DNA from: Eudoraea adriatica DSM 19308
Lineage (GTDB): Bacteria > Bacteroidota > Bacteroidia > Flavobacteriales > Flavobacteriaceae
Assembly: GCF_000382125.1 (NCBI RefSeq)
Contig: NZ_KB907549.1
Coordinates: 336,965-400,964 of the forward strand
DNA length: 64,000 nt
Direction of reading: 5' to 3'
Made by a program: the position numbers and the translations under genes. The first letter of the stretch is position 1. Each line of letters starts with the position of its first letter. This document shows, piece by piece, positions 10,521-28,068 of the stretch. The notes under the pieces are model-generated. The model saw only the letters and a list, made by a program, of their open reading frames with translations. It ran no database searches and was not told the DNA's origin.

Positions 10521-10564
10521 GCAGGAGCTGCTCAAATTCATGACTTTGAAGTTGAAGGCGCAGG

Positions 10565-12569: not shown

Positions 12570-13095
12570 AACGCCTTTCTTTTAATAATTCCTTTAAATG
12601 CCCTTTGCCTCTGAGCAAGCGGGTTCTGCAAGTGGTCTCTGTTAATTTCATTATTTGCGAAATCTCTTTGTGATCATATCCCTCCATGAGGTAAAGCTGT
12701 ACAACAAGCCGGTATTTCTCTGTCAGTTGATTTATAGCCTCTTTAACCTCATCAATAGATATCCCATCTTCTACTGTCCAGTCATCATCCTCCACGATAT
12801 GAATGCTATTCTCATTCAGCTCCTGAAAACGTTCCTTTTTCGTTTTAAGAAAATCAATACTCTTGTTGATGACAATTCGCTTCAACCATGCACCAAATGT
12901 TACTTCACCTTTGAATTGATCTATCTTTTGAAAAGCCTTAATAAATGCCTCCTGTACGACATCTTCCGCGTCATCGGGGTCATTTACAAATCGTTTTGCC
13001 ACAAAAAACATTCCCTCACAATATTGCCTGTAAAGCCTTAATTGCGCTTTACGATCGTTGGCTTTGCAACGTTCTACCAGATCTATTTGAAACAT
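12553..13095 (-). CDS. ECF-type RNA polymerase sigma factor
   Basis: A sigma-70 family protein of 180 residues from ATG 13095; a TTG five codons upstream is possible but less likely. Region 2 includes DDAEDVVQEAF and the -10-reading helix around TFGAWLKRIVINKSID. Region 4 carries the helix-turn-helix (EGYDHKEISQIMKL). It heads a three-gene overlapping operon with a putative anti-sigma and an exported effector. Its upstream region runs directly into a decayed copy of the galM 5' end, so the genomic context of its promoter has been altered. Confidence 0.88.
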   Translation of the reverse strand: MFQIDLVERCKANDRKAQLRLYRQYCEGMFFVAKRFVNDPDDAEDVVQEAFIKAFQKIDQFKGEVTFGAWLKRIVINKSIDFLKTKKERFQELNENSIHIVEDDDWTVEDGISIDEVKEAINQLTEKYRLVVQLYLMEGYDHKEISQIMKLTETTCRTRLLRGKGHLKELLKERRYGTGS

Positions 13096-13130
13096 TTGGC
13101 CGGTTTCCAATTTTTGGTGCTAGTTGTTAT

Positions 13131-13320
13131 TATCTAAAGGACGAGTGAAAATATTACATGTTGCAAAAAACAAGTGTTTTTAAGAAATATTTAAATGGTC
13201 CACCTTATAACAAGTTACAATTAAAAACAATTTTACAGCCGTAAGCATTATTGACTAAAGGCTATTATTCAAAAGCTACTGGTTATAGACCGGGAAGGAA
13301 AAGAGCTGAACTTAGGTCTC
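13131..13320 (+). pseudogene. Decayed copy of the aldose 1-epimerase 5' region
   Basis: This stretch aligns with 26500-26690, the leader and first 35 or so codons of the intact aldose epimerase gene. Over 13134-13201 against 26503-26570, 61 of 68 bases match by my count. Similarity continues without a large gap through AACAAGTTACAATTAAAAAC and GGAAGGAAAAGAGCTGAA, then stops near 13320. In the epimerase frame the copy carries TAA stops directly at the start and again within 20 codons, plus a 1-base deletion, so it is dead. The rest of the gene is absent here. It marks the left boundary of the inserted block. Confidence 0.85.
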
Positions 13321-13405
13321 CCTGGGTGTCCACTCCGATGACATTTGGTGATTTGTCAGAAATAATTTCGGCACCCAATTATTTTATTCAAAAAGCGTAA
13401 AAATA

Positions 13406-13421
13406 ATATTGCACGCAATAT
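13406..13421. promoter_or_regulatory. Palindrome ATATTGC-AC-GCAATAT
   Basis: A perfect inverted repeat with 7-base arms and a 2-base spacer in the 164-bp gap between the galM remnant and the glucose dehydrogenase stop codon. It is downstream of the minus-strand operon, so it may be part of a 3' structure or a leftover operator. The rest of 13321-13484 shows no convincing gene. Confidence 0.3.
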
Positions 13422-13484
13422 GGTCTTCTCTATAAGTTTACCAGCTCCGCTTTTTTACATGAACACTGATCAAAAGATCGCCTC

Positions 13485-14534
13485 CTAAATATCTGAAAAC
13501 TGAATAACCACTTTGATATCATCCGGAGAGCGTTGCAGAGCCTTCATAAAATTTTCCGGTTTCTCAATCCGGGTAATGAGTTTGGTCAACCATCCGCGGT
13601 CTGCACGAGCCAGGTATTGACTGGCCCTGTACCAATGGCGTTTATTGGCATTTACACTTCCCACAATTACATTATTCCTAAGCACTGCTGCGGAGGCTAC
13701 ATCCGCTATGCTTGACGTGGGGGAAGCCCCGCCATGACCTATACCTGCCAGACATACTATACCATTTGCCCCAATCCTTTGAATAGATTCTGCTATTACC
13801 TGACCCACACCGGTACATTCGATAATCGTATCGGGTTCGAAATCAAGATCCTTTACACTACCGGAATGATAGGTAGCGCCCAATTCACGCACCAGGTCGA
13901 CCTTAAGGCCACCTGCGGCCCGATCGAGAACGTGCACATCTAGACCATACAATTTCGCAAAGAGGGCTGCCAGTAAGCCAATCGGACCAGCACCTGTAAT
14001 CAAGGCCGTCCTGGGTTCCCAGAACGAACGCCTTCCGATCAGACCTACCTGTTCCAATGCTTTGGCCACTACTGAAGAAGGTTCAAGCAATACACCCAAT
14101 AAGCCGAGGGTTGGATCAACTTTAATGGCATACTCTGGTTCAATACGCCAATATTCTGACATATAACCGTTGATCTCTTTGATTCCTCGTTCTGTATATA
14201 ATCCGTTGCTGCACATGTCCCATTCTCCTACCGCACAATTCGGACAAGGCACCGGGTCTGGCCGCCTTACGATGCCAACAACCAGGTCCCCTTTCTTAAG
14301 CCCGCTGGTTGGCCCCGGGTCAATTACACGACCCAGTGATTCATGGCCGAGTACCAGATGTTTCTGACCAGGTGGTGCCCAACCATATTTCCCCTCCACG
14401 ATTTCAACATCGGTACCGCATACACCGACGGCGACTGCCTGCACCAATACGGAGCCTTCGTGCACTCCCGGCTCGGGAATATCCATCAGTTTTGCTGTTC
14501 CGGGTTTTTTAGGTTCTACAGTAATTGCTTTCAT
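13485..14534 (-). CDS. Zinc-dependent glucose 1-dehydrogenase, medium-chain (archaeal-type Gdh)
   Basis: A 349-residue medium-chain alcohol dehydrogenase closest in pattern to the glucose dehydrogenases of Thermoplasma and Sulfolobus, which oxidise D-glucose to gluconolactone with NAD(P)+. Catalytic zinc ligands are Cys39, His64 and Glu65 (GHES). Structural-site cysteines are 97, 100 and 108, so one of the usual four is missing. The dinucleotide loop is GAGPIG (181-186). It is the last gene of the ZIP - GH63 - dehydrogenase operon, 43 bp after the glucosidase. That suggests glucose released by the glucosidase is oxidised here, producing reducing equivalents. Confidence 0.82.
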   Translation of the reverse strand: MKAITVEPKKPGTAKLMDIPEPGVHEGSVLVQAVAVGVCGTDVEIVEGKYGWAPPGQKHLVLGHESLGRVIDPGPTSGLKKGDLVVGIVRRPDPVPCPNCAVGEWDMCSNGLYTERGIKEINGYMSEYWRIEPEYAIKVDPTLGLLGVLLEPSSVVAKALEQVGLIGRRSFWEPRTALITGAGPIGLLAALFAKLYGLDVHVLDRAAGGLKVDLVRELGATYHSGSVKDLDFEPDTIIECTGVGQVIAESIQRIGANGIVCLAGIGHGGASPTSSIADVASAAVLRNNVIVGSVNANKRHWYRASQYLARADRGWLTKLITRIEKPENFMKALQRSPDDIKVVIQFSDI

Positions 14535-14577
14535 GTGTTACTATTTATTTTTTTAATTAGGATTTAGCTACAACCCC

Positions 14578-17346
14578 TTATATAATTTCTTCAGTAATTT
14601 TTTTCACTGTACGCTTCTTCTTGCCGGTTACCTTCTTGTCCTTCACAAATGTGGTTTTTATTCCGTCTTTTAGGAGTTGCTCTGCATCCACCTGACCAAA
14701 GATTTGAATAAGTTTTGCCACCACTCCGCTCCAGCCAGTTTGATGACTCGCACCCAATCCGGCCCCGTTGTCGCCATGGTAATACTCATAAAATAAAATC
14801 AGATCGCGCCAGTTGGGATCATTTTGGAATTTTTCTGTACCTCCATACACCGGACGTTTTCCATTGGCACCTCGTGTATACGTACTGATAAGCCGATGGC
14901 TAATTTCCTTGCTCACCTCAAAGAGGTTCATCATGTTGCCAGAGCCAGTTGGACATTCCACTTGAAATTTATCCCCGTAATACAAATAGTATTGTTGCAG
15001 TGCCCGCACCAACATGATGTTAATAGGCATCCATACAGGGCCACGCCAGTTTGAGTTACCTCCAAACATTCCTGTATCGGACTCGGCGGGTAGATAATCC
15101 ACCCGGAATTCCTGACCTTCAACGTGCATGACATATGGATGTTCCTGATGAAACTTGGAAATCGAACGAATTCCATGTGGACCCAGAAACTCATTTTCAT
15201 CGAGCATTTTTGAAAGAATCTTACGTAATCTATCTTCATTTACCAGGGCCAGAATACCGCGCTCATTTACACCAAATTTTCCTTCGCCGGTGGCATGTAT
15301 GGTTTCTAAAAGTTCGGGCATTCTGCGTTCAAATTCCCTTATGGTTGCCATTGCCTCGGGAATCCGATCTCGCTGTACTTTTTCCACTATACTCGTAGCA
15401 CATAAGGGTAGTAACCCTACCAGCGAGCGCACTTTTAGCCTGACAGCACTTCCATCAGGTAATCGAAGCAGATCATAATAAAATCCATCCTCCTCATCCC
15501 ACATCCCATCGTTGCCTGGCTTATTCATAGCTCTGGCAATAAATAGGAAATGCTGTGCAAACTTCACAATCATTTCGTCGTAGGAACTATCATGCACAGT
15601 GAGTTCACTGGCAAGGTTCAGCATATTCTGGCTGAAGAGCGCCATCCAGGCCGTGCCATCCGCTTGCTCAAGATTACCTCCGGTTGGCAGAGGTGCACTA
15701 CGGTCAAAAATACCGATGTTATCCAGACCAAGAAATCCGCCTTCAAACACATTTTTACCAAAACGGTCTTTACGATTTACCCACCAGGTAAAATTGATTA
15801 ATAACTTATTGAAAGTGGAACGTAAAAAATTTACATCCGCCTCCCCGCGCAATGTCATCTCTGATCGATGCAGGAATAAGGTCGCCCATGCATGTACAGG
15901 AGGATTTACGTCGCTAAAGTTCCATTCATAGGCCGGCATCTGTCCATTGGGATGGAGGTATAATCCGCGTAGCATTAACTCCATCTGGTTCTTCGCGAAA
16001 TCAGGATCAACGATAGAAAGAGGCAGTGTATGAAAGGCAAGATCCCAGGCCGCATACCACGGATACTCCCATTTGTCTGGCATAGAAATGATATCCATGT
16101 TCAACATGTGATACCATTCCGAATTTCGGGCATTATGATAGCCTGAATGCAGGGGATTAGAATTGTGTTCATCCAACCAGTTGTCACCATCAAAAAAGAA
16201 GAACTGCTTACTCCACAGCATACCCGACAGGGCCTGTCGCATCACATTGGCTTCGTCAGCACTGGCTGAATGTGGAGTAATGGAGGCATAAAATGCATCT
16301 GCTTCACCAACCCGCTTTTCAAACACGGTTTCAAAATCTTTTCCGAAAAGCGCGGTCATTGCTTCTTCTGATTTTTTAGTCAGGCGCAACCGAACTTCGG
16401 AAGTCTCACCGGCACCGACCACAAGCTGATAAAGAGCTGCTGCTTTTGTTCCCTGGTTTTTTGGATTCACCGCCTGTTGTGCACCATGTATAACATAGTC
16501 GTTGATGCCATCTTTAACATAAGGGCTTTCATTTTTGGTTCCGGGAAAAAGTTTTTCATGATTCGTTTCGTTTTCGGTGAACAACAGTTGCACATCACCC
16601 TCACAGGAGAATATAAATTCACCCAGTTTTGAATGATTAGCCATGAGTGCGCTCACCCCTTTCTTTGATTTAATTTGCGATAGTATTGGCTTTGTCGCTA
16701 CCCGGTTGGAGTCGGCAATCCATGCCGACCAGTCGTTGCGAAACCACAAGGTAGGTAGTAGATATAACTCCGCTGCTTCCGGTCCGCGGTTAGCTACACT
16801 GATCTTTATGAGAATATCTTCCGGACCCTGTTTGGCATATTCTATGAACACATCGAAGTACCGATCCTCATTAAATATACCCGTGTCGAGCAGTTCATAT
16901 TCCATTTCATTTCGCGAACGTTGAGCATTTACTCTTTCAAGATCACTGTATGGATATGCCGCCTGCGGGTACTTGTAGAGATATTTCATATATGAATGTG
17001 AAGGAGTATTGTCAAGGTAGAAGTAGTACTCCTTTACATCCTCCCCGTGGTTGCCCTGGTTGTTGGTCAATCCGAATAGCCGCTCTTTGAGTATAGCATC
17101 TTTTCCATTCCATAAGGCCAGTGAAAAGCAAAGGTGCTGCTTGTCATCCGAAATCCCGGCAATGCCATCTTCACCCCAACGGTAAGCGCGGGAGCGGGCA
17201 TGATCGTGGGTGAAAAAATTCCAGGCGTCACCATTCTCGCTATAATCTTCGCGAACGGTACCCCACTGCCTTTCACTCAAATATGGCCCCCACTTTTTCC
17301 AAGGGAGTTTATTCTCACGTGCTTCCTGCAATCTGATATTTTCCAT
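14578..17346 (-). CDS. GH63-type glucosidase (MGH1-like glycoside hydrolase)
   Basis: A 922-residue cytosolic protein without a signal peptide. The central and C-terminal parts have the (alpha/alpha)6 toroid of the MGH1-like/GH63 clan, with recognisable segments EWYHMLNMD, WEYPWYAAWDLAFH, MWDEEDGFYYD and GMFGGNSNWRGPVWMP. GH63 enzymes hydrolyse alpha-glucosides or mannosyl/glucosylglycerate by inversion. It lies between the ZIP transporter (86-bp gap) and the glucose dehydrogenase (43-bp gap), so glucose is the likely product. The exact substrate cannot be read from the sequence. It ends in a Lys/Arg-rich tail of about 30 residues. Confidence 0.78.
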   Translation of the reverse strand: MENIRLQEARENKLPWKKWGPYLSERQWGTVREDYSENGDAWNFFTHDHARSRAYRWGEDGIAGISDDKQHLCFSLALWNGKDAILKERLFGLTNNQGNHGEDVKEYYFYLDNTPSHSYMKYLYKYPQAAYPYSDLERVNAQRSRNEMEYELLDTGIFNEDRYFDVFIEYAKQGPEDILIKISVANRGPEAAELYLLPTLWFRNDWSAWIADSNRVATKPILSQIKSKKGVSALMANHSKLGEFIFSCEGDVQLLFTENETNHEKLFPGTKNESPYVKDGINDYVIHGAQQAVNPKNQGTKAAALYQLVVGAGETSEVRLRLTKKSEEAMTALFGKDFETVFEKRVGEADAFYASITPHSASADEANVMRQALSGMLWSKQFFFFDGDNWLDEHNSNPLHSGYHNARNSEWYHMLNMDIISMPDKWEYPWYAAWDLAFHTLPLSIVDPDFAKNQMELMLRGLYLHPNGQMPAYEWNFSDVNPPVHAWATLFLHRSEMTLRGEADVNFLRSTFNKLLINFTWWVNRKDRFGKNVFEGGFLGLDNIGIFDRSAPLPTGGNLEQADGTAWMALFSQNMLNLASELTVHDSSYDEMIVKFAQHFLFIARAMNKPGNDGMWDEEDGFYYDLLRLPDGSAVRLKVRSLVGLLPLCATSIVEKVQRDRIPEAMATIREFERRMPELLETIHATGEGKFGVNERGILALVNEDRLRKILSKMLDENEFLGPHGIRSISKFHQEHPYVMHVEGQEFRVDYLPAESDTGMFGGNSNWRGPVWMPINIMLVRALQQYYLYYGDKFQVECPTGSGNMMNLFEVSKEISHRLISTYTRGANGKRPVYGGTEKFQNDPNWRDLILFYEYYHGDNGAGLGASHQTGWSGVVAKLIQIFGQVDAEQLLKDGIKTTFVKDKKVTGKKKRTVKKITEEII

Positions 17347-17432
17347 AACCTTGTTATTTAGTTGAAGTCGAAATATTTAATTTCCCTAACTGTTATAATT
17401 CTTTTTTTCTCCTTATTTTTTCGTCTGTTCCA

Positions 17433-18170
17433 TCAGGAATTTTCTAAAATGACTATTGAGACGGAAACAAAAAACCCAAGAATTGTAAAGACTCCCGCAA
17501 GTTTTCCTCCATTCTCGTAGGCTTCGGGAATCATTGAATTGGCAAGCATCATCAGAATGGCCCCTCCTGCATAGGCATTAATAAAGGCCATCCAGGAAGG
17601 AGATATGTTACTGAATAAAGTGAATCCCAGGAGAGTAGCGACAGCACAAAAAAGCGCGATGCCAAACCATAGAATAATTATCTTTTTGCGGCTCCAGCCA
17701 CCTTCCTTCATTCCCACCGACCCGGCAATGGCCTCAGGCAAATTAGAAATGAATATAGCTACCAACATGGACAAACTAACGGATCCATACTCAAAAATTC
17801 CCAATCCCAATACGATGGATTCAGGTATACCATCCAGTATGATCGCGAGAATCATGGGGACAATCAAGGCAGTATGACTGTTTGGGTCTGGTTTTTGCGT
17901 CTTGGAAAAACTAAATCGACCGATCAACCAGTCCGCCAGTAAAAATGTCAAAGCTCCACTAAAAAAGCCATATGCAGGAAAACCACTTCTTTTTGCAATT
18001 TGTACAGCTTCAAAAATTAACTCATAAGAAACGGCTGAAATTAGCGTTCCTGCGCCAAACCCCATGATGATGCCGATCATACGCTTTTCCAAGGTGAAAC
18101 GCGAGGCGAGTACTCCTCCTATAATAAGTGAAGAGGAACTCAGCAGGCCTATTAAGAAAACATTGAACAT
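17433..18170 (-). CDS. ZIP-family transporter with altered metal-site motifs
   Basis: An integral membrane protein of 245 residues with about eight hydrophobic segments and overall ZIP-family pattern. ZIP metal transporters carry HNxPEG-type motifs in helices IV and V. Here the corresponding segments read LDGIPES and SNLPEAIAG, so the canonical histidines are absent while the Pro-Glu pairs remain. It may therefore carry a different metal or have changed selectivity. It is the first gene of the ZIP - GH63 - Gdh operon and is preceded by the regulatory region at 18239-18540. Confidence 0.75.
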   Translation of the reverse strand: MFNVFLIGLLSSSSLIIGGVLASRFTLEKRMIGIIMGFGAGTLISAVSYELIFEAVQIAKRSGFPAYGFFSGALTFLLADWLIGRFSFSKTQKPDPNSHTALIVPMILAIILDGIPESIVLGLGIFEYGSVSLSMLVAIFISNLPEAIAGSVGMKEGGWSRKKIIILWFGIALFCAVATLLGFTLFSNISPSWMAFINAYAGGAILMMLANSMIPEAYENGGKLAGVFTILGFFVSVSIVILENS

Positions 18171-18357
18171 GTCTAATTCTTTAATATCTGATTATTTCTA
18201 TTTCACTTTTGCTTTATCTTTTTTTACATTCTGAGCTCATTATTTTACGAGATTTTTATCCCCTCTATCAACAAACTGGCATAAATGATTGTGTTCTTTA
18301 AGTTCATAAATATGTAAGGTTTTTCACTATTAAAATTACAATTGAATGCGGATAAAT

Positions 18358-18381
18358 AAAATACTTAGAAATAGGTATTTT
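18358..18381. promoter_or_regulatory. Palindromic operator candidate upstream of the ZIP operon
   Basis: AAAATACTTA-GAAA-TAGGTATTTT, 10-base arms with one mismatch, 188 bp before the ZIP start codon. The whole intergenic stretch (18239-18540) is similar to the one upstream of the glycyl radical enzyme gene, which has the perfect version of this palindrome at nearly the same distance. Shared flanking strings include TAGGTATTTTA, TCCAT and GATAAGTT. A 33-codon open stretch (18447-18545, starting MDKPDKLIP) overlaps the boxA-like 3' end and is probably not a gene. Confidence 0.6.
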
Positions 18382-18540
18382 ATGACTTTCCATGGTTATC
18401 AAATCAGCTTCATGTATTCAAAAAATAAACCGGATGCTCATCTATATGGATAAACCAGATAAGTTGATACCTAATATTGTGTATTTGGAAGAAGTTTATC
18501 CGGGAAACATAAACTTGACCTATAAACTGGTTGAAAATGA

Positions 18541-19803
18541 TCAATAAGTCTCTATGTGCAGACGACCATTGTTTTTCAGTTCCTTACTCAACGTTTTCCA
18601 ATTCAACCCTGCCTGCTCTGCTATGTCACGCAGCGTCAGTATGACACCTTCTTCCATACTCCTTAGGCCACAAATGTAGAAATAGCTATCAGGGTCTGCC
18701 AGTAAGACGGCCAGATCTGCACTCCGCTCGCGCATGAGGTCCTGTACATATTTCTTAGGTTGACCGGGAGTTCTTGAAAAAGCAATATTTACATCCACAA
18801 GATCCTTTGGAATTTTATACAATCTTCCAAAAAAAGGAAGTTCCTCCTTTGTACGGGCACCAAAGAACAGCATCATCTTGCCACTTGTAAATTTATCTGA
18901 GCGCCGCAGACGGTCCCGCCGATGGAGCATGCTACGCATTGGGGCCGAGCCCGTACCGGTGCAGATCATCACAATATGGCTACCCGAATGATTCGGCATC
19001 AAAAAACTGTTGCCATAAGGGCCGGTTACTTTCAAAGAATCTCCAACCTTCAGATCGCAGAGGTAGTTACTGGCAATACCATGTACAGAATTGCCTTCAC
19101 GATCTTTATTCACCCGTTTTACCGTCAGCGAAAGATTGTTGTACCCTTCCCGCTCACCATCCCGTGCACTGGATACAGAATACTGACGTACATGGTGTGG
19201 TTTACCGGAGGCGTCTATGCCGGGAGGAATAACACCTATGGACTGGCCTTCCAGGACAGGGAAGGGGGTTTTACCAAAATCCAGTACGATAAGGTGGGTG
19301 TCGTATTCCTTCTCCCTTTCTGTGACACGCATATTACCTGTGATGGTTGCCGTCACAGGATTTTTTGGATCATATAGCCTGGTGTAGGCATGAGCAGCAG
19401 ACCAGGGTGGAAGTGTTGAACCAATATTCAGATCACTCAATGGATGTCCCTGAATGCTCTTGGAGGGTTTTAATACTTCAGCTTCGGGCTTCGCTATACC
19501 ACTCACACCTGCAGCTGCAAGCTGGCCAGCCGTCAATTCGACCGGGAGCGCATCCCAGCCTATTTGTGTCTGAACGCTATAGGCATTTGAGCGTGGTACC
19601 ATCCTCCAATTGTCTATGGCGCCCGTAGGACAAGGATCTATACACGCCATACAGGAAGTACACTTGATCGAATCTACCACATATTTTCCCGAATCGTTCG
19701 AAATAGCACCCTCCGGGCATGTAGTTTTACAGGTATTACACTGAATACAGGTCTCCGGATCGATCAGATGTTGCCTGATAATATCATTCTTAGTAAGTTC
19801 CAT
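18541..19803 (-). CDS. BoxA-type ferredoxin/FAD/NADPH reductase
   Basis: A 420-residue electron-transfer protein. The N-terminus has two complete [4Fe-4S] motifs: Cys19/22/25/29 and Cys48/51/54/58, with the CPTGAIDNW sequence typical of BoxA, the reductase of benzoyl-CoA 2,3-epoxidase. A linker of about 70 residues leads to a ferredoxin-NADP reductase module with the flavin motif RQYSVSS, the nucleotide-binding GTGSAPMRS, and a C-terminal Tyr (HIETY) that normally stacks on the flavin. BoxA passes electrons from NADPH to the oxygenase BoxB, but no BoxB or BoxC gene is present here. As last gene of the glycyl-radical operon it could instead reduce the radical-SAM activase or its ferredoxin. 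That partner is inference. Confidence 0.82.
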   Translation of the reverse strand: MELTKNDIIRQHLIDPETCIQCNTCKTTCPEGAISNDSGKYVVDSIKCTSCMACIDPCPTGAIDNWRMVPRSNAYSVQTQIGWDALPVELTAGQLAAAGVSGIAKPEAEVLKPSKSIQGHPLSDLNIGSTLPPWSAAHAYTRLYDPKNPVTATITGNMRVTEREKEYDTHLIVLDFGKTPFPVLEGQSIGVIPPGIDASGKPHHVRQYSVSSARDGEREGYNNLSLTVKRVNKDREGNSVHGIASNYLCDLKVGDSLKVTGPYGNSFLMPNHSGSHIVMICTGTGSAPMRSMLHRRDRLRRSDKFTSGKMMLFFGARTKEELPFFGRLYKIPKDLVDVNIAFSRTPGQPKKYVQDLMRERSADLAVLLADPDSYFYICGLRSMEEGVILTLRDIAEQAGLNWKTLSKELKNNGRLHIETY

Positions 19804-19878
19804 AAGTCAATTGAGATTATCTAATTTATTCAGGCTGGATTAAAACCAGCGTTAATCAGGAATACTGTAAGATGAATT

Positions 19879-21060
19879 TCAAACCCTGGAAAACTGAGCT
19901 AGTAATTCATCTCTTGCATCCAATTTTTCCCATTCAAACTCCTCACGGCCAAAGTGCCCGTATGCTGCAGTATTTCGGTAAATAGGACGTCTTAGCTTAA
20001 AGAGGTCAATTATGCCTTGTGGTGAAAGTGGGAAGACCTTACGAACCAGCTTTGACAGGGCTTCGTCTGATATCTTGCCGGTGCCGTAGCTGTTGACCAT
20101 AACTGATACCGGATCCACAAGGCCGATACAGTAACCTAACTGAACCAGACACTCATCTGCCAGTTTAGCCGATACTATGTTCTTTGCAATATACCTTGTC
20201 ATGTACCCGGCTGACCGGTCAACCTTTGTTGGGTCTTTTCCACTAAAGGCGCCGCCTCCATGCACTGACCAGCCACCATAAGTGTCCACAATAATTTTAC
20301 GACCTGTAAGCCCCGTGTCGGCCTGAGGTCCGCTAACGAGGAATTTTCCCGTACCGTTTACGGTAATTTTGGTCTGCTTGTCCATCAAATCGCCCATAAC
20401 CGGACGCACCACTTTTTCAATAATTTCATGCTTAGCTTCTTCGGTAGTGAATTTACCGTCGGGGGTAACTACTGCGGATGTATGCGATGCAGCTATAACA
20501 ACGTAATCAGCACGTACAGGTTTGCCATTTTGATATTCCAGGGTTACCTGTGTCTTACCATCAGGCCCAAGATAAGGCAATACTTTTGTTTTGCGGACTT
20601 CCGTAAGCTTTCGTGCCAGCTTATGTGCCAGCATGATGGGCATGGGCATTAGTTCTTTCGTTTGGTTACATGCGTATCCGAACATCAGACCCTGATCGCC
20701 GGCACCAATTTTCCCTCCTTTTTTTGCAATCCCCAGACTGATATCCGGCGACTGCCTGTGTATGGTTCGGGCAATAGCTCCTGTATTGACATCAAAACCA
20801 TACTCCGGCGAAATATAACCGACATCATTTCCTAATTCGCGCACCACCTCGGATATATCAAAGATTGCCTTGGTGGTCACCTCACCGCCGACGATCACCA
20901 GGCCCATTGTGACGTAGGTCTCGCAGGCTACACGTGACATCGGATCGAGTCTCAGACATTCGTCAAGAACGGTATCCGATATGAGATCGCAAAACTTATC
21001 CGGATGACCTTCCGTTACGGATTCTGAAGTAAAAAACATGTTTTTAGGATACAGTGACAT
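19879..21060 (-). CDS. metK: S-adenosylmethionine synthetase (island copy)
   Basis: Makes SAM from methionine and ATP in the cytosol. The 393-residue protein has the substrate motif EGHPDK (17-22), [11 protein letters not shown], and the phosphate loop [16 protein letters not shown]. Length is normal for MetK. Its position inside a radical-SAM operon, 29 bp after a ferredoxin gene and 75 bp before the BoxA-type gene, suggests dedicated SAM supply. Since metK is essential, another chromosomal copy is expected outside this window; the island G+C bias fits a foreign second copy. That is an expectation, not something visible here. Confidence 0.93.
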
Positions 21061-21089
21061 TTTGGGTTGGATTTATGTTTTTCAAATAC

Positions 21090-21329
21090 TTAAGAAAAGA
21101 CCGAGCCTCCTCGACTGGTTACTGGAACCATCTCCAGGGCATTGTTCGGGCAAGCTGAAATACAATCTCCGCATCCTGTACATTTGGCCAGATCAATTTC
21201 AGGCTTGCCAGGCAACAGGTCATTACTCTGGCAGGCCATTGGGGGGAAGCGGTCGGCACCTTTGGTTATGGCCTGCTCAGGACAAGCAGCAATGCAATCG
21301 TAGCTGCTTCTGCAATGATAAAATTTCAA
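21090..21329 (-). CDS. Two-cluster ferredoxin, possibly damaged
   Basis: A ferredoxin-like product of 79 residues from TTG 21329. The C-terminal cluster motif is complete (Cys50/53/56/60, CTGCGDC). The N-terminal motif reads CRSSYDCIAAC: Cys6, Ser9, Cys12, Cys16, so the second ligand is Ser, one base change (AGC for TGC) from Cys. That could give a [3Fe-4S] cluster or reflect decay. An in-frame ATG at 21386 is followed six codons later by TAA (21366-21368), and the segment between that stop and the TTG has no ATG or Shine-Dalgarno. Either the gene starts at TTG, or a nonsense mutation has broken it. It probably served as electron donor to the activase. Confidence 0.6.
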   Translation of the reverse strand: MKFYHCRSSYDCIAACPEQAITKGADRFPPMACQSNDLLPGKPEIDLAKCTGCGDCISACPNNALEMVPVTSRGGSVFS

Positions 21330-21480
21330 TTTTGCTTTAAAACCAGGCCCGGTGAATTGACTCTTTTATGTGTTTTCTGTTTCCATGAATCAAATACTTT
21401 ACAATTCTTAATTTACCTACCTGTTCATAAGCCATGCCCTGTCAATAAACATGAACAAGGCATGGACTACTACATTTAGG

Positions 21481-22446
21481 TTATGCTTTGGCTTCCGCCT
21501 TCCGGCCAAAAGCCTCATCAATAATACTCCTCAGATGTTCAAGTAATTCAGGCGAAGGCGATTGATAATCCTGTAATTCGTAAACCTTGCCTAAATAGGC
21601 ATATTTACCTAACCCATAGCGGTGATACGGTAGCAATTCATAATCAATCACATTTTTGTAGGGCTTTATAAAATCAAGTACCGCACGAATATGCCCTTCA
21701 TCGGCATTAATGCCGGGAATAAGTGGTGTTCGTGCTATAAATTCTACGTCTGGAAAAGTTTCGTAGGCTTTCTTAAAGTTTTCAAGCGAGCGCTTATTAG
21801 TTACACCAATCCATTTTTTATGGCGTTCCGGATCTGGATTCATCAGTTTATTATCGTGCTGCATCAGGTCAACATACTTTAAAACTTTCTCCATAAACTC
21901 CCATGGAACATTGCCAGCCGTTTCGATAGCAGTATGAATACCACTTTCTTGGGCCCCGCGCAAAATAGCCGCAGTAAAATCAGGTTGCAGTAAACACTCG
22001 CCACCGCTAATGGTTACACCACCACCGGTATTGCGATACATACTTTCATCTTTCAGCACTTCGGTAAGCACTTCGCCGGCCGTCATTTCTTTGCCAAACA
22101 TACCAATAGCTCCGGTAGGACATAATTCTGCAAGTTCTTCAGTACAGGCATTGGCCAAATCCCAGTTCGCATGAACTTTGTCATCGTCACCATCCAGCAC
22201 GTAAAACGCTCCCGGAGGGAAGGGACCCTTCAAACAAATGCCGCATGCTGCCGCGCCTTTGCACGCCTTTCGATTAAAATCCAGCTCCGGTTGCGGTTTT
22301 ATACTCTCCGGGTTGCTGCACCACTTACAGCGATAGGAGCAACCTTTCAGGAATACGGTTGTCCGGGTACCCGGTCCGTCTTCTCCACAGAACCGCTGTA
22401 TATTCAATACGCGGCCTTTTATATCTAAATAATTTTGAGCTTCCAT
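21481..22446 (-). CDS. Radical-SAM glycyl radical enzyme activating enzyme
   Basis: Uses SAM and a reduced [4Fe-4S] cluster to place the glycyl radical on the partner enzyme. The 321-residue protein has the radical-SAM cysteines Cys36, Cys40, Cys43 (CSYRCKWC) and the GGE motif (148-150). The ferredoxin-like insert between them has only five cysteines (62, 68, 71, 101, 109) instead of the eight needed for two auxiliary clusters, though CPTGAIG is kept. Insert-bearing activases serve non-PFL glycyl radical enzymes. It sits 10 bp after the PFK-like gene, in the same operon as its presumed target. Confidence 0.9.
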   Translation of the reverse strand: MEAQNYLDIKGRVLNIQRFCGEDGPGTRTTVFLKGCSYRCKWCSNPESIKPQPELDFNRKACKGAAACGICLKGPFPPGAFYVLDGDDDKVHANWDLANACTEELAELCPTGAIGMFGKEMTAGEVLTEVLKDESMYRNTGGGVTISGGECLLQPDFTAAILRGAQESGIHTAIETAGNVPWEFMEKVLKYVDLMQHDNKLMNPDPERHKKWIGVTNKRSLENFKKAYETFPDVEFIARTPLIPGINADEGHIRAVLDFIKPYKNVIDYELLPYHRYGLGKYAYLGKVYELQDYQSPSPELLEHLRSIIDEAFGRKAEAKA

Positions 22447-22456
22447 AATAGTTGAA

Positions 22457-23608
22457 TTAAACTCCTGTATAAATTCCCAATGCCTGGGCTACTTTAATAA
22501 ATCCATGGTCCTTGTCCACCCTGCGAACTTTGTTCAACGCATCAATGAGCGGCACAAAGTCTATATGCGGGGGTACGAATGTCGCCATAGTGCCAAACTT
22601 GCTTTGTTCGAGGGCTTTAGCGGACGCTGCGCCATAGGCCAGTCCTAATTGACGATCCACGGCAGTGGTATTCCCTCCGCGCACCCAGGGACCCAAGACC
22701 AATGGATATACCTCATCTGCAAGCAACTGTTGCAAGGCGTACGACAACGTTTTTGCTGCCTGCCCGCTTTTATTGATGGTAAATTCGCTGTCTTCTTCTG
22801 TTGCCGAAGGCGACAATGCCTTCCTCAAATCACTAAGGGTATCTTCTGTGCGCCCTGGAAGATTTACAAACGAACTTCCTTCTGCCACTACCACCAAAGC
22901 GTGCGGCTTGTCAGGGGTTATTCTGGATTTCAGGTTTTGCGCCAGGTCATTCACATCGCAAGGGAACTCCGGCGATATAACAGCATCTGCCAAAGCGGCA
23001 ATGCCGCTTTGCAAAGCCAGCCATCCGGCCTGCGACCCGGGGACTTCCACAACTCCGATTTTTTTAGCGGAGACAGCTGCCTGTTTGGCCCTGTCGAGCA
23101 TTTCGATACAGAAGCTCAGTGCAGTATTGAATCCGAAAGCAACGGGAGTCGCAGCCATATCATTTTCTACAGTTCGTGGTATACATACTGACTTTAAGCC
23201 TTTTGCATTAAGCTTATGAAGTATGCTTAGACCTCTGCCCATCATAATGGCGATAACGCCATCAATATTTTCTTTCTTAATATTCTCGAGAAGGGTATCT
23301 GACATATCCACTTCTTCAATCATTTCCAATTCGTTGATGGTCCGCACATTAAAGGGGTCCATGCTCGCTGCTGTACCCATGGCATCGCTGCTCATCGGAT
23401 TCAATTTGCTGATTACCTCCGGCCCTAAGTCAATCAATCCTTTGTTCGGATATTTTTCAGGGAAGAGCAATCCTTCGAAACCATCGCGAATACCTACTAC
23501 TTCCCAACCTGCTTTGTGGGCTGAAATAGCAGCTCCCATAATTATGGAATTGATGCCGGGAGTATACCCTGCCCCAATGGCGATAGCTATTTTCTTTATG
23601 GTTTTCAT
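22457..23608 (-). CDS. Phosphofructokinase-fold protein with altered active site
   Basis: A 383-residue member of the PFK fold, recognisable from GINSII, the ND of the substrate loop, AEGSSF (Glu243) and RGGNTTAVDR. Nearly every catalytic motif differs. The ATP/PPi loop GGDAPG reads GAGYTPG (12-18). The Mg-binding GGDG reads MGRG (123-126), with Arg for Asp. The catalytic TIDND reads TVEND (146-150), with Glu for the base. The sugar-binding EVMGR reads EVPGS (188-192), and the usual His in LGH is Pro307. Ordinary 6-phosphofructokinase activity is therefore doubtful. It lies between the glycyl radical enzyme gene (65-bp gap) and the activase gene (10 bp). It may bind a sugar phosphate as regulator or act on a different substrate. 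Confidence 0.8.
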   Translation of the reverse strand: MKTIKKIAIAIGAGYTPGINSIIMGAAISAHKAGWEVVGIRDGFEGLLFPEKYPNKGLIDLGPEVISKLNPMSSDAMGTAASMDPFNVRTINELEMIEEVDMSDTLLENIKKENIDGVIAIMMGRGLSILHKLNAKGLKSVCIPRTVENDMAATPVAFGFNTALSFCIEMLDRAKQAAVSAKKIGVVEVPGSQAGWLALQSGIAALADAVISPEFPCDVNDLAQNLKSRITPDKPHALVVVAEGSSFVNLPGRTEDTLSDLRKALSPSATEEDSEFTINKSGQAAKTLSYALQQLLADEVYPLVLGPWVRGGNTTAVDRQLGLAYGAASAKALEQSKFGTMATFVPPHIDFVPLIDALNKVRRVDKDHGFIKVAQALGIYTGV

Positions 23609-23673
23609 AATTACTTTCTTTATGTATTATTTAGATACAGTCGAGGTAAAACCCTCGACTGTATCTTTTGATT

Positions 23674-26124
23674 CTAATTGAATGTTTGCAGCGTACGCTC
23701 AATGACCTCGTTCTGAACACCCACATCAAGTTTGGTGAAAAAGGCGCTAAAACCTGCTACCCTAACCACCAGGTCACGGTAGTTTTCCGGATGTTTTTGT
23801 GCATCTCGAAGCATTTCAGTATCCAGACAGTTGAACTGAATGTGGTAGCCGCCATTGTCGAATAAGGTTTTTACCAGAGCTAAAATTTGATCTCTACCTT
23901 TTCGTGTCTTCAGCTGATCCGGCTGCACTTTCATGTTCATGTGTGTGGCAGTCCACTTAACCGCATCATTACCCACAGTAGCCGACATTACCAGAGCAGT
24001 AGGTCCGTTAACATCGGTACCCGGCATGGCCGATAAACTGCCATCGGTAAGTGCCAATCCAGCTTTCTTGCCAGTTGGCAAAGCGCCGGTGACCTTACCC
24101 ATCAGGTTATGCACGCTCTTAGTGTATTGATCGAGTGAGGTTTTGATATCCCTGGTAATGTAGTTACCCCCGCCATCTACATTTTTGAAAGCGGCTAAAA
24201 TGCTATCATTTACCCGTCTCACCATGTGATCAGGTTCGGCCAGGTTGTTACCATATTTAGGAGCATCCACGTAAACCATCTTGTGCACGCGTTCATATTC
24301 GCCTTCAAAATTGGCAGCGAGTGCAGCCTTTAATTCTTTCCAGGTAAGTTTCTTTTTGTCGTATATCAAATGCTTGACTGCCATTAGCCCGTTACCGGCA
24401 TCCACCGATCCAACAGAAATTTGAGCAACTGTATAGTAATTGGCACCACCGTTCCATACATCAATACCCGACTCAATACATCCTCCGGTAAGAAGCGAAC
24501 GCCAGGTTACCGGCAGATACTCTGCTGCCAGCATACTGGCAATCCAGGCACCCCTGCGGAGCACATCCTCGCAGAATTGAAGCTGTTTTTCAAAAGCGGC
24601 ATACAATTCTTCAAAATCCTTGAATGTTTCAGGATCTCCTGTTTTAGGGCCTATCTGTTTTTTTGTGCGCGGATCAAATCCATCATTCAATGTTAATTCC
24701 AGCACCTTACCCAGGTTCGGCTGGCCTTCTACCGGGTGGCCGGTTTCATAAGGGATATAACTACCCACACAAGCTCCTACGCAGGTGCGTCTGGCTTTGG
24801 ACAAAGGTAGATCCCCGTTTTTGGAATGTCCCCACATGTGCAGGGCCCGTTTGAACATGGCATCCCCGCTAATAAATTGAGGCATGCCAATACCGGTACC
24901 AATAACATCCAGTACTTTTTCGAGTAGTTTTCCGGGGGTTTTATTGGTGTAACACAAAGATAGTGGCGGCTGTGGTAAATGAAGGTGGTTGCACGCATCA
25001 AGAATCACAAAATCCATTTCCGCATGTGCATGGTCCCCCTCTTCATCATACCCGCCAAGCGTGATGCTTTGGCCAAGGTCGGCAGAATTTTGAAGCGCAA
25101 CTTTCTCTCCAAAGTAATAGCCGATTTCGTTGAGCTTAATCACGAGGTTTTCAAACATAAAAACAGCATCCTCATAGTTAATCAGCCCGGCTGCTTTATC
25201 GGCTTGATAATATGGTTCCAGATTCTGCCCAAGGTAAGCCTCAGAATACCCGCAACCTACCTGTTCAATTTCTGCAACAATGTGGCAGAAGAAGTGGGAC
25301 TGCATCGCTTCGCGAAGGTTTCGGGCCGGATGTTCAGGTACCCATTCGCAGGTTTCGGCAAGGGAAATAAGTTCTGCTTTGCGTATTTCATTTTTTTCTT
25401 TCGCTGCCATTTCACGCGCCAATGCAGCATAACGTTTGGCATAGCGTAAAATAGCCTTCATTGTAATCAATCCAGCTTCGTAGAAGTAGAATTTTTCTTT
25501 GTTGGGCAATCGCATTTCAAGCGACATCATTCGCTCTTCCACTTCCTTGATCATACTCGCAAGGCCTTCTCTGTAAACCCGGGGGTAGTCCAGGTTACCT
25601 CCCCCAGCCGGCCAGCTAAAAAAATCTGCTACCAGGCCTGCCTGGTAAATGGGCCTGGCATCATAGCCATATCTTTTTTCATAAATTTCATGAACGCGCG
25701 GTACTTGCGCACGCTTGCCCCAATAATCAAGAACCCATTGGTTAGCTGCCTTTAATTCAGGAGTTTTTGAATTTTCTACTACTTTTTCTTCAATCATCCA
25801 GCCCACCTGCCATTCAGGGTAAGTGTAAATACCGTTGACAGTGCTCGCCATGGCACCAACAAAGAGATTGTCATCAATGTAGAGTTTCTTTCGGTCTAGC
25901 AATGCCTCATTAAACCTGGCTCTTCGAATTACATTAGGATATCCTTCGGTGTTCTCGTATACTTCCTTCATGATTATTATCCGCTCGAAATCCACTTCGG
26001 CAGGAGTGCTCCGCATAACTTCTTTTAACTGGTCGATCCTTGCCGTATCGGCATTGACACGTCCTGTGTTTACGGCCGATGCTCTATCGGACTTTGTTTC
26101 TGAATTTTTAACTGCTATTGCCAT
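23674..26124 (-). CDS. Glycyl radical enzyme of unassigned subclass
   Basis: An 816-residue member of the pyruvate formate-lyase superfamily, starting at ATG 26124 (a GTG precedes). The C-terminal radical motif is RVAGFS with Gly791. The candidate thiyl residue is Cys452 in GACVGSY, 339 residues before the glycine, matching the usual spacing of about 330-340. Dehydratases and 4-hydroxyphenylacetate decarboxylase have Cys-Val-Glu; here Cys-Val-Gly lacks the acidic residue. A second cysteine, Cys448, lies four residues earlier. Segments KKQIGPKTGDP and HLPQPPLSL recall the arylacetate decarboxylase / X-succinate synthase side of the family rather than PFL, which has adjacent cysteines. Its activase is in the same operon. 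The reaction is not known. Confidence 0.88.
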   Translation of the reverse strand: MAIAVKNSETKSDRASAVNTGRVNADTARIDQLKEVMRSTPAEVDFERIIIMKEVYENTEGYPNVIRRARFNEALLDRKKLYIDDNLFVGAMASTVNGIYTYPEWQVGWMIEEKVVENSKTPELKAANQWVLDYWGKRAQVPRVHEIYEKRYGYDARPIYQAGLVADFFSWPAGGGNLDYPRVYREGLASMIKEVEERMMSLEMRLPNKEKFYFYEAGLITMKAILRYAKRYAALAREMAAKEKNEIRKAELISLAETCEWVPEHPARNLREAMQSHFFCHIVAEIEQVGCGYSEAYLGQNLEPYYQADKAAGLINYEDAVFMFENLVIKLNEIGYYFGEKVALQNSADLGQSITLGGYDEEGDHAHAEMDFVILDACNHLHLPQPPLSLCYTNKTPGKLLEKVLDVIGTGIGMPQFISGDAMFKRALHMWGHSKNGDLPLSKARRTCVGACVGSYIPYETGHPVEGQPNLGKVLELTLNDGFDPRTKKQIGPKTGDPETFKDFEELYAAFEKQLQFCEDVLRRGAWIASMLAAEYLPVTWRSLLTGGCIESGIDVWNGGANYYTVAQISVGSVDAGNGLMAVKHLIYDKKKLTWKELKAALAANFEGEYERVHKMVYVDAPKYGNNLAEPDHMVRRVNDSILAAFKNVDGGGNYITRDIKTSLDQYTKSVHNLMGKVTGALPTGKKAGLALTDGSLSAMPGTDVNGPTALVMSATVGNDAVKWTATHMNMKVQPDQLKTRKGRDQILALVKTLFDNGGYHIQFNCLDTEMLRDAQKHPENYRDLVVRVAGFSAFFTKLDVGVQNEVIERTLQTFN

Positions 26125-26308
26125 CACTTAGATATTTTCGATTAATATTATTCAACTATTGCTTTACCATTTATTGCTTCCTCGCAGGTAATTATTTTCC
26201 AAGAATTTCATCCTCATTATCAAGATCTGGAAAAATGAATTGCATTTTTTATTTTCATAGCTATTTAGAATACTCCAACTTTAAAGTTACGCAGAGATAA
26301 GCATAATT

Positions 26309-26332
26309 AAAATACCTATTTCTAGGTATTTT
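26309..26332. promoter_or_regulatory. Perfect palindromic operator upstream of the glycyl radical operon
   Basis: AAAATACCTA-TTTC-TAGGTATTTT has perfect 10-base arms and lies 185 bp before the ATG at 26124. The gene-free stretch 26128-26470 around it resembles 18171-18540, upstream of the second island operon, including the strings after the palindrome (CTCTCCATAGCGATCAAA, GATAAGTTTATACC). It is probably the binding site of one regulator that controls both operons. No regulator gene is in the island. Confidence 0.65.
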
Positions 26333-26470
26333 ACTACTCTCCATAGCGATCAAACCCGATAAGTTTATACCCATAATGGAGTTTGTGAAAGTTTCCGGCA
26401 TCATTAAAAAATAAGGGGGAATCCAATGTAAAATAGTTTTACCTGCTTTACCGTTGATGATAGATTTACG

Positions 26471-26478
26471 TATGTTTG
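26471..26478 (+). promoter_or_regulatory. Flavobacterial -7 element upstream of the aldose epimerase
   Basis: TATGTTTG fits the TAnnTTTG -7 consensus of Bacteroidota promoters and is followed by the galM leader. It lies outside the segment duplicated at 13131, so the remnant copy has no promoter. Confidence 0.4.
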
Positions 26479-26513
26479 AAAAGGGTATTTGAATGTAATT
26501 ATCTAAAGGAGAC

Positions 26514-26552
26514 ATGAAAATATTACATGTTGCAAAAAACAAGTATTTTTAA
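26514..26552 (+). CDS. Possible 12-codon leader peptide upstream of galM
   Basis: ATG at 26514 has a good Shine-Dalgarno (AAAGGAG, 26506-26512) and reads MKILHVAKNKYF then TAA, in the same frame as galM, 21 bases before the galM start. In the remnant copy the same stretch reads GTG...TAA with one Tyr-to-Cys change, and AAAGGA is kept. It may be a leader peptide, or an old N-terminus of galM separated by a nonsense codon. Confidence 0.3.
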   Translation: MKILHVAKNKYF

Positions 26553-26573
26553 GAACTATTTAAATGGTCGCCC

Positions 26574-27482
26574 TTGGAACAAGTTACAATTAAAAACGAT
26601 TTTATATCCTTAAGCGTTCTAGACTACGGTGCTATTATTCAAAAGCTTCTGGTGAAGGACAAGGAAGGAAAAGAGCTGAATTTAGTTGTAGGGCTGGAGA
26701 ACCCGAAAAGTTATCTGGACGATCATAAATGTTTAGGCGCCTGCGTTGGCCGATATGCGGGAAGGATATCAAACGGGGGATTTCAGATAGAAGGGAATAC
26801 CTATAATTTATATACCCAGAATGGCGTGCATCTTCACGGTGGAAAACAGGGTTTCGCACAAAAATACTGGAAGTTTGATGCTATTGAGCACAGGGAACAA
26901 CCCTTCGTAAAATTGACGCGCCAAAGCCCTCATATGGAAGAAGGTTATCCTGGAAACCTAAAGGCCAGTGTGACTTATAAGCTAATAGATAATTCATTAC
27001 AAATTATTCATGAGGCGATAACAGACAGGACTACGATACTAAACCTGACCAACCATTCCTACTTTTGCCTGGATAGCACCAATTCCATTGATCATTATCA
27101 GTTGCAATTGCAATGCCCTGAAATATTAGAAACCGATAATAGTTTACTGCCTACAGGAAAGCTGGTTTCTGTTAAGGATACTCAATATGACTTCCTTACC
27201 AGAAAAGAGATTGGAAAAATACGATTAGATACTGCTTACGTGGTTTCAGATAGTGCCAAAAAAGTGGCGGAATTATATTCCCCGGTTTCAGGAATGCGAA
27301 TGACGGTGGAAAGTAATCAACCTGCAGTTATTGTTTATACTCCCCCTGAGTTTGGAGCTATTTGTTTTGAAACCCAAAACTATCCGGATGCGCCCAACAT
27401 TCTATCATTTCCCTCCGCCATACTTCATCCCGGAGAAACCTACATCAACAAGGCAGTTTTTACATTTGATTTAGTAACTTAG
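26574..27482 (+). CDS. galM: Aldose 1-epimerase
   Basis: Interconverts alpha and beta anomers of aldohexoses. The 302-residue protein shows the galactose mutarotase pattern: ISLSVLDYGAIIQ at the N-terminus, GRYAGRI, HLHGG, the catalytic-type NHSYF histidine, and a C-terminal Glu in the LHPGE segment. The start is TTG at 26574, since an in-frame TAA lies eight codons upstream and the family begins at this point. The first 35 codons and the leader are duplicated, decayed, at 13131-13320. Before the island arrived this gene was probably the divergent neighbour of the sigma factor operon. Confidence 0.88.
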   Translation: MEQVTIKNDFISLSVLDYGAIIQKLLVKDKEGKELNLVVGLENPKSYLDDHKCLGACVGRYAGRISNGGFQIEGNTYNLYTQNGVHLHGGKQGFAQKYWKFDAIEHREQPFVKLTRQSPHMEEGYPGNLKASVTYKLIDNSLQIIHEAITDRTTILNLTNHSYFCLDSTNSIDHYQLQLQCPEILETDNSLLPTGKLVSVKDTQYDFLTRKEIGKIRLDTAYVVSDSAKKVAELYSPVSGMRMTVESNQPAVIVYTPPEFGAICFETQNYPDAPNILSFPSAILHPGETYINKAVFTFDLVT

Positions 27483-27507
27483 ACAAACTAAACAAGACAT
27501 CTTTAAT

Positions 27508-28068
27508 ATGAAAGTAATCAAATGGATTTTGATCATCCTGATGGCATTAGCCTTGCTTTTTTTCTTTGTGGGAATGCCCTATCTAAAAGAACAAACAAAA
27601 AAGAACAGCCCTCAGAAGACTGTTGTTTATACTGAAAACGGCATGGATCTTACCATAAAATACAGTAGTCCCTTTAAAAAGGAACGGGTTATATTTGGCG
27701 GGCTGGTGCCTTATGATACCGTATGGCGAACCGGTGCAAATGAGCCCACTACCTTTACCACAAATTCCAAAATTTATATTATAGACAAAGAACTTCCGAC
27801 AGGCACTTATTCCATTTGGACCATTCCCGGCAGAGAAAACTGGCAGGTAATTTTCAATAAGAATGTCCCGGAATGGGGCGTGACCCTTACAAGTGGTGGA
27901 AAAGAAACAACACGTATGCCCGAAGAAGATTTGGTTACTGTGGAAGTGCCGGTTATTAATTTGTTGGAAACAGTTGAAAGTTTTACCATCTCTTTCGAAG
28001 AGACCGGGCAGTTGTACCTGAGCATTGAATGGGATAAAACCAAGGTACGGGTACCTATTAATAACTAA
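27508..28068 (+). CDS. DUF2911 protein with N-terminal membrane anchor
   Basis: A 186-residue protein with one N-terminal membrane segment (about residues 5-24), then a beta-rich DUF2911 domain marked by VWRTGANEPTTF and YSIWTIPG. DUF2911 proteins are common exported proteins in Bacteroidota without a defined role. It follows galM by 25 bp and is followed by meaB after 2 bp, so it probably belongs to a galM-DUF2911-meaB unit. Confidence 0.75.
   Translation: MKVIKWILIILMALALLFFFVGMPYLKEQTKKNSPQKTVVYTENGMDLTIKYSSPFKKERVIFGGLVPYDTVWRTGANEPTTFTTNSKIYIIDKELPTGTYSIWTIPGRENWQVIFNKNVPEWGVTLTSGGKETTRMPEEDLVTVEVPVINLLETVESFTISFEETGQLYLSIEWDKTKVRVPINN

Follow-up and report, generated by a model that had tools for sequence, protein, structure and literature searches.

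What does a phosphofructokinase (PFK)-like protein do when its gene lies between those of a glycyl radical enzyme (GRE) and a radical S-adenosylmethionine activase? The question is raised by a 64,000-nucleotide stretch of the Eudoraea adriatica DSM 19308 genome, referred to here as the window. Its relevant features are collected in Table 1.

Table 1 Features of the window, with residue counts over the aligned rows of the PFK-like family.
Feature	Coordinates	Strand	Details
PFK-like protein	22457..23608	(-)	383 aa; phosphofructokinase fold without canonical catalytic residues; ATG start
GAGYTPG, for the canonical loop GGGD[AS]PG	23555..23575	(-)	D12 is Y or F in 19/19 family rows covering the position
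MMGRG, for GGDGS	23231..23245	(-)	D103 is G in 18, N in 1 and P in 1 of 20 rows
TVEND, for TIDND	23159..23173	(-)	E at D127 in 18/20 rows, D in 2; D129 retained in 19/20
EVPGS, for EVMGR	23033..23047	(-)	R171 absent in 20/20 rows; position variable
GPWVRGG, for GHxxRGG	22673..22693	(-)	H249 is P in 18 and L in 2 of 20 rows; R252 retained in 19/20
GRE, new subfamily	23674..26127	(-)	Cys453 in GACVGSY (no CxE), Cys292, Gly792 in RVAGF
GRE Cys-loop Cys453 codon	24769..24771	(-)	A-C-V-G-S-Y
GRE second invariant Cys292 codon	25252..25254	(-)	QVGCGYSE
GRE glycyl radical Gly792 codon	23752..23754	(-)
GRE activase	21481..22446	(-)	radical SAM, PFLE/PFLC type
MetK (SAM synthetase)	19879..21060	(-)	Flavihumibacter (L119) also has a relative adjoining the operon
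4Fe-4S ferredoxin domains fused to FNR-like reductase	18541..19803	(-)

Fold and residues of the PFK-like protein

The Pfam PFK model (PF00365) matches residues 6–332 of the PFK-like protein (E = 1.9e-53), and all 11 of the matching NCBIfam PFK models score it under their curated cut-offs. The best of these is PFK_mixed (213.5 against a cut-off of 430.55 bits), and another gives 195.1 against 253. Structure prediction, which the initial annotation had proposed as a check, agrees with a PFK fold: confidence in the AlphaFold model is moderate (pLDDT 68.8, pTM 0.53, with segments 146–162, 253–279 and 298–315 below 50), and solved PFKs rank first when it is searched with Foldseek (2pfk_A, E = 9.4e-23, TM 0.81 by target length). 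The family also carries an extra segment near residues 250–283 with a largely conserved LSPLA.

A residue map to Bacillus PFK, taken from ungapped phmmer stretches, pairs D12, D103, G104, S105 and D127 with Y15, G124, R125, G126 and E148 of the window protein, and R162, M169, R171, R243 and H249 with K183, P190, S192, Y301 and P307. G11, T125, D129, G170, E222 and R252 are retained. We take Asp103 to serve Mg/ATP, Asp127 to be the catalytic base, and Arg171, Arg243 and His249 to belong to the fructose-6-phosphate/transition-state site. The map bears out TVEND, EVPGS, GAGYTPG and Pro307 as initially described. The further claim that the Mg-binding Asp had become Arg needs correction: the ungapped alignment places Gly124 at D103 and Arg125 at G104, and Arg at the former would require a one-residue shift.

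In 59 relatives and a further 394 genomes from the phylum of the window, the best matches of the protein reach at most 41% identity; the closest among the 59 relatives (L005) is an ordinary PFK. For comparison with intact homologues we used 30 of the 32 best matches in the phylum (32–41% identity; G267 and G208 left out). All 30 keep D12, D103, G104, T125, D127, D129, R162, M169, R171, E222, R243, H249 and R252, with Y41 replaced by Phe in five and S105 by Thr in one. Two other PFKs of the window's own genome, on a different contig, both keep D103, D127, R171 and R252. Set against these homologues, the picture of a PFK fold without its canonical catalytic residues stands.

The replacements recur throughout the family (Table 1). 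Arg171, Arg243 and His249 are kept by none of the 20 rows, and the positions of M169 (L/Q/P/I) and R171 (E/A/S/T/D/G) vary from row to row. At G104 there is Q in 12 rows and R in five, at R162 Lys in 18, and at pocket position 222 E or Q; the two rows with Asp at D127 are L089 and L093. The predominant retention of D129, Glu at D127, Lys at R162 and R252 indicates that part of the sugar-phosphate site persists. Taken as a set, however, the 18 catalytic positions show no conservation beyond that of the remaining positions (mean entropy 0.68 against 0.80, with 25% of random sets as low), which gives no evidence for a preserved new active site.

In a tree of 51 PFKs, the 19 PFK-like rows form a single clade (support 100/100), whose stem measures 1.47 changes per site; the row of L086, cut off by a contig end, was not long enough to be included, and the frame-disrupted first copy in L095 was excluded from the family alignment. 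Four of five PFK-like pairs, which share sequences, have dN/dS of 0.08–0.13, and the fifth, window against Flavihumibacter, is saturated. Monophyly, common replacements, low dN/dS and the same operon place in all 18 genomes described below favour the initial view that the changes reflect a new function rather than decay. Among the 20 listed of 64 matched plasmid records, identity to the PFK-like protein is at most 31.4%.

The glycyl radical enzyme and its operon

The gene ahead of the PFK-like gene encodes a GRE, as seen from its PFL-like domain, the motif RVAG[FY], the Cys-loop Cys and the adjacent radical-SAM activase. It reaches none of the NCBIfam GRE equivalogs (HypD, CutC, HpsG, HpfG, HPAD, IAD, PFL), the best being HypD at 456.5 against a cut-off of 1100. 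HypD is also its closest solved relative (E = 1e-142), and the fumarate-adding X-succinate synthases TutD and MasD match more weakly. The C-x-E motif is absent from the Cys loop, which has C-V-G and reads GACVGSY where the HypD-type GREs compared read SGCVE. Cys292, at a position that our search pattern did not demand, is invariant in all 11 near-full-length GRE rows; its counterpart in the alignment with glycerol dehydratase is the His of NGHS, a residue with a substrate role in that enzyme. In place of HypD β1 His160, the alignment has a Gly of WP[AG]GGGN. According to the available part of PMC8473560, CXE is a conserved feature of GRE eliminases and an E470Q variant is inactive. The missing C-x-E, the Gly at HypD His160 and Cys292 make an IslA- or HypD-like elimination by this GRE unlikely, judged from sequence.

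We searched genome_contigs (84,980 species) for carriers with a GRE pattern that combined [GA]-C-[VIM]-G in the Cys loop with spaced conserved positions. Seventeen of the 21 loci found encode the same GRE (68–87% identity over the matched pieces), and the C-V-G of these carriers is partly given by construction, since the pattern demanded C-[VIM]-G; the other four loci (L085, L090, L092, L099) encoded no relative by tblastn and were dropped. The PFK-like protein, which formed no part of the search pattern, is encoded in each of these 17 genomes as well, at 48–70% identity to that of the window (51–70% for the best copy per genome, best E per genome at most 4.7e-112). The carriers span at least six phyla: they fall in Bacteroidetes, Balneolaceae, Ignavibacteriae, Verrucomicrobia, Burkholderiales, Gammaproteobacteria, Desulfuromonadales, Hydrogenedentes and Acidobacteria, with one 'bacterium' or otherwise unplaced metagenome-assembled genome (MAG). 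Most are MAGs, and the named strains are Lutimonas halocynthiae CECT 8444 and Flavihumibacter profundi KCTC 62290.

The number of carriers is a lower bound, as GREs with another Cys loop and PFK-like genes without a GRE escape the pattern. One of 240 genomes sampled from the phylum of carrier G455 encodes the PFK-like protein at 1e-85, namely G455 itself, and no PFK-like gene without the GRE was found in the limited samples of 59 relatives, 394 window-phylum genomes and these 240. Scans of viral_contigs and genome_contigs that started from the PFK-like protein returned no relative; they also missed the 17 carriers, probably because the automatic peptide patterns fell in unconserved places, and are no test of rarity. 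A PFK motif pattern with T[IVM]END had no match in viral_contigs.

In all 18 genomes, the window's included, the PFK-like gene lies behind the GRE gene and has the same orientation, and the activase gene comes next in each of the 16 loci long enough to include it; contigs L086 and L091 end inside the PFK-like gene. At L113, which is the locus of L096, the GRE and PFK-like genes are separated by a ferredoxin-like gene. Co-occurrence with the GRE, suggested initially as a check, is thus complete in these genomes, 17 of which were found through the GRE pattern. The initial annotation had called the linkage of the GRE to its activase unexpected. A GRE gene usually adjoins its activase gene, and what is unexpected here is the PFK gene between them.

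Second PFK-like copies occur in three genomes (after the activase in both L083 and L095, and 46 kb away in G455), and the first copy in L095, a MAG, is frame-disrupted, which may be an assembly error. In G455, the genes at L108:16141-18687 (-) and 9797-10936 (-) comprise this second paralogue, 48% identical to the window's protein, and, about 5 kb from it, a different GRE with the Cys loop SGCSE; genes whose products presumably resemble AcnX and PPK2 are nearby. A ferredoxin-like protein of about 380 residues with a 4Fe-4S C-terminal region is encoded in two operons with a second PFK-like copy (L104:10848-12014, L112:1034-2158) and at L113:15512-16804.

For 16 of the 18 operons, the window's and 15 others, neighbouring genes were taken as the longest non-overlapping open reading frames. 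The resulting counts are minimum values, since antisense frames mask some real genes and the stretches of L109, L110 and L115 are shorter than 10 kb. In the window, the ferredoxin/FNR-like reductase fusion is a possible electron donor of the activase, and positions 13000–28000 have no Rfam match at gathering scores. A GH63/MGH1-like hydrolase (window:14578-17346) and a glucose-dehydrogenase-like gene (window:13485-14534) also lie near the operon; relatives of the former are near the operon in L107 and L117, and relatives of the latter in L117 and about 9 kb from a DszB-like gene in L134. Lutimonas halocynthiae has a DUF5692 protein and a putative Na+/H+ antiporter near its operon (L118:5700-6935, L118:3704-5575), and in Flavihumibacter a serine-dehydratase-family protein, which we take to be possibly a cysteine desulfidase, is encoded beside MetK (L119:4449-6083).

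Sulfur-related genes of the carriers

A gene for a relative of DszB (dibenzothiophene desulfurization enzyme B, a sulfinate desulfinase) is present in the whole genomes of 12 of the 18 carriers and lies within 10 kb of the operon in seven. At 1e-8 it is absent from G453, G455, G456, G457, G461 and G463, whose assemblies are of unstated completeness. None of 295 other genomes of the window's phylum, the phylum to which this control applies, has it at 1e-60; the copies in the carriers reach 1e-158 or lower. Among proteins of known structure, DszB alone is related to the encoded protein under E = 0.001 (2de2, E = 1e-12). His60 and Arg70-x-Gly-Gly are aligned, and His60 and R70-F-G-G are invariant in eight rows of the DszB-like protein; Cys27 of DszB falls outside the alignments, and presumably the invariant Cys43 may be its equivalent.

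In the window's genome, the DszB-like gene is on another contig (G000:C2:149650-150816). Genes for a PAS-LuxR regulator and for a small unknown protein lie upstream of it. Flavihumibacter (L119) has relatives of this pair next to its GRE operon, and Lutimonas (L135) has them upstream of its DszB-like gene. The surrounding region (L133:6337-13678, from G000:C2) encodes the PAS-LuxR regulator, the small protein, outer-membrane-like proteins, the DszB-like protein and a rhodanese.

Of the 16 operon neighbourhoods, at least seven contain SulP permeases, at least six contain fusions of a CoA-disulfide-reductase-like protein with rhodanese, at least four contain separate rhodanese genes and at least seven contain a DszB-like gene. 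SBF transporters recur, and sulfatases lie near some operons. The frequency control covers the DszB-like gene; the SulP, rhodanese, SBF and sulfatase neighbours are given as raw occurrences. In our reading, the operon probably has a role in organosulfur metabolism.

Possible roles and related systems

We put the probability at roughly 0.6 that the PFK-fold protein is no longer a 6-phosphofructokinase but is dedicated to the new GRE, with which it is inherited in an operon ordered GRE, PFK-like gene, activase gene. Its place directly behind the GRE in all 18 carriers suggests that it probably serves this enzyme and not sugar breakdown. It would no longer transfer phosphate from ATP or PPi to fructose-6-phosphate, and the remodelled pocket (E at D127, D129, K at R162, R252, E/Q at 222) may bind a ligand of the GRE pathway. 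A gene beside the GRE and before the activase, the loss of the Mg-site Asp and the drift of the transition-state positions favour an accessory or sensor, which would not be a glycolytic enzyme. We know of no precedent for a PFK-derived partner of a GRE.

The persistence of E148, D150, K183 and R310 would also permit an enzyme of a new reaction, such as a kinase of another substrate, a phosphatase, an isomerase or a lyase, acting on the substrate or product of the GRE with Glu148/Asp150 as an acid–base pair. This alternative is possible, although we rate it well below even odds. It gains from the near-constancy of D129 (19/20), Glu at D127 (18/20), Lys at R162 (18/20) and R252 (19/20), and from the pathway enzymes that GRE operons often hold, but D12, D103 and R171 are absent in all covering rows, the positions of M169 and R171 vary, conservation of the catalytic site does not exceed background, and the gene is placed inside the pair of GRE and activase genes, not beside it. 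On balance we favour, tentatively, the partner or sensor.

For the GRE, the lack of CxE would mean no glutamate-assisted elimination of the kind seen in HypD, CutC and IslA. With a second thiol that presumably lies in the pocket, the enzyme would probably act on an organosulfur substrate, and this step may stand upstream of a desulfinase that releases sulfite. Put together, we tentatively propose that a PFK was turned into a non-kinase protein that serves a GRE as its dedicated partner or sensor, and that the new two-cysteine, glutamate-free radical reaction of this GRE on an organosulfur compound feeds the DszB-like desulfinase. Environmental bacteria from many phyla would then share a radical sulfur pathway; as a whole, this scheme is speculative. 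The operon might instead be unrelated to sulfur, with another activity of the DszB-like protein and a system that acts on sugars. Such a reading agrees with the weak NMT1 match that is all Pfam returns for the DszB-like protein, with the GH63-like genes that neighbour the operon in the window, in L107 and in L117 (L111 being a candidate clustered frame), with the glucose-dehydrogenase-like genes in the window and L117, and with the GREs YbiW/PflD, which act on anhydro-sugar phosphates according to the accessible part of PMC12441222. We consider it rather unlikely, given that DszB is the sole solved relative, with His60 and Arg70-x-Gly-Gly aligned, and that these loci repeatedly have rhodanese and SulP genes close by.

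A phosphofructokinase of ordinary glycolysis with relaxed residues is highly improbable: the Pfam match and the fold are retained, but the residue tests contradict it, as the residues kept by all 30 intact homologues are lost, and the scores under the 11 NCBIfam cut-offs, the two other PFKs in the genome and the location in a GRE operon also speak against it. Least credible is a decaying passenger, to which the lost catalytic residues and the one frame-disrupted MAG copy would point, since it is contradicted by purifying dN/dS values, family-wide new motifs, the operon's conservation in all 18 genomes, which span at least six phyla, and second copies retained in three genomes.

If the proposal is right, a glycolytic enzyme fold has been captured by radical chemistry, a class of GREs without the usual glutamate is opened, and an undescribed radical step in organosulfur breakdown is suggested. 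Annotation by domain would name the protein phosphofructokinase and so mislead metabolic models. The two named strains make the system testable. No description of the GRE/PFK-like pair was found among the open-access papers listed in our literature searches, a coverage that leaves out most subscription papers, and the word 'phosphofructokinase' does not occur in the accessible portion of PMC11528403.

Among known systems, the 6-phosphofructokinases of the TIGR02483/PFK_mixed type are the probable source group of the family. They share its fold, give its best NCBIfam match and include its nearest intact homologues (32–41% identical). The PFK-like protein differs from them in the replacement of D12, D103, R171, R243 and H249, in the mostly Glu residue at D127, in the extra segment at about 250–283 and in its GRE operon. 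The C-terminal half of eukaryotic PFK is likewise a PFK domain with catalytic residues lost (TVSNN aligned to TIDND) and serves as an effector site; it is fused to an active half, whereas the PFK-like protein is free and tied to a GRE. HypD and the other CxE eliminases (glycerol dehydratase, CutC, IslA) are the closest solved relatives of the GRE and have its Cys and Gly loops in common, but the window's enzyme lacks CxE, has Gly at HypD His160 and Cys292 at the glycerol dehydratase His, and stays far under the HypD cut-off (456.5 against 1100). YbiW/PflD of radical-mediated glycolysis (Ma et al. 2024, as cited in PMC12441222) offer the concept of a tie between GREs and sugar phosphates; they are different GREs from the window's, and the available part of that source does not mention a PFK-like protein. 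DszB, finally, aligns with the linked DszB-like protein (2de2, E = 1e-12) and has His60 and Arg70-x-Gly-Gly in common with it, as a distant relative from a different gene neighbourhood.
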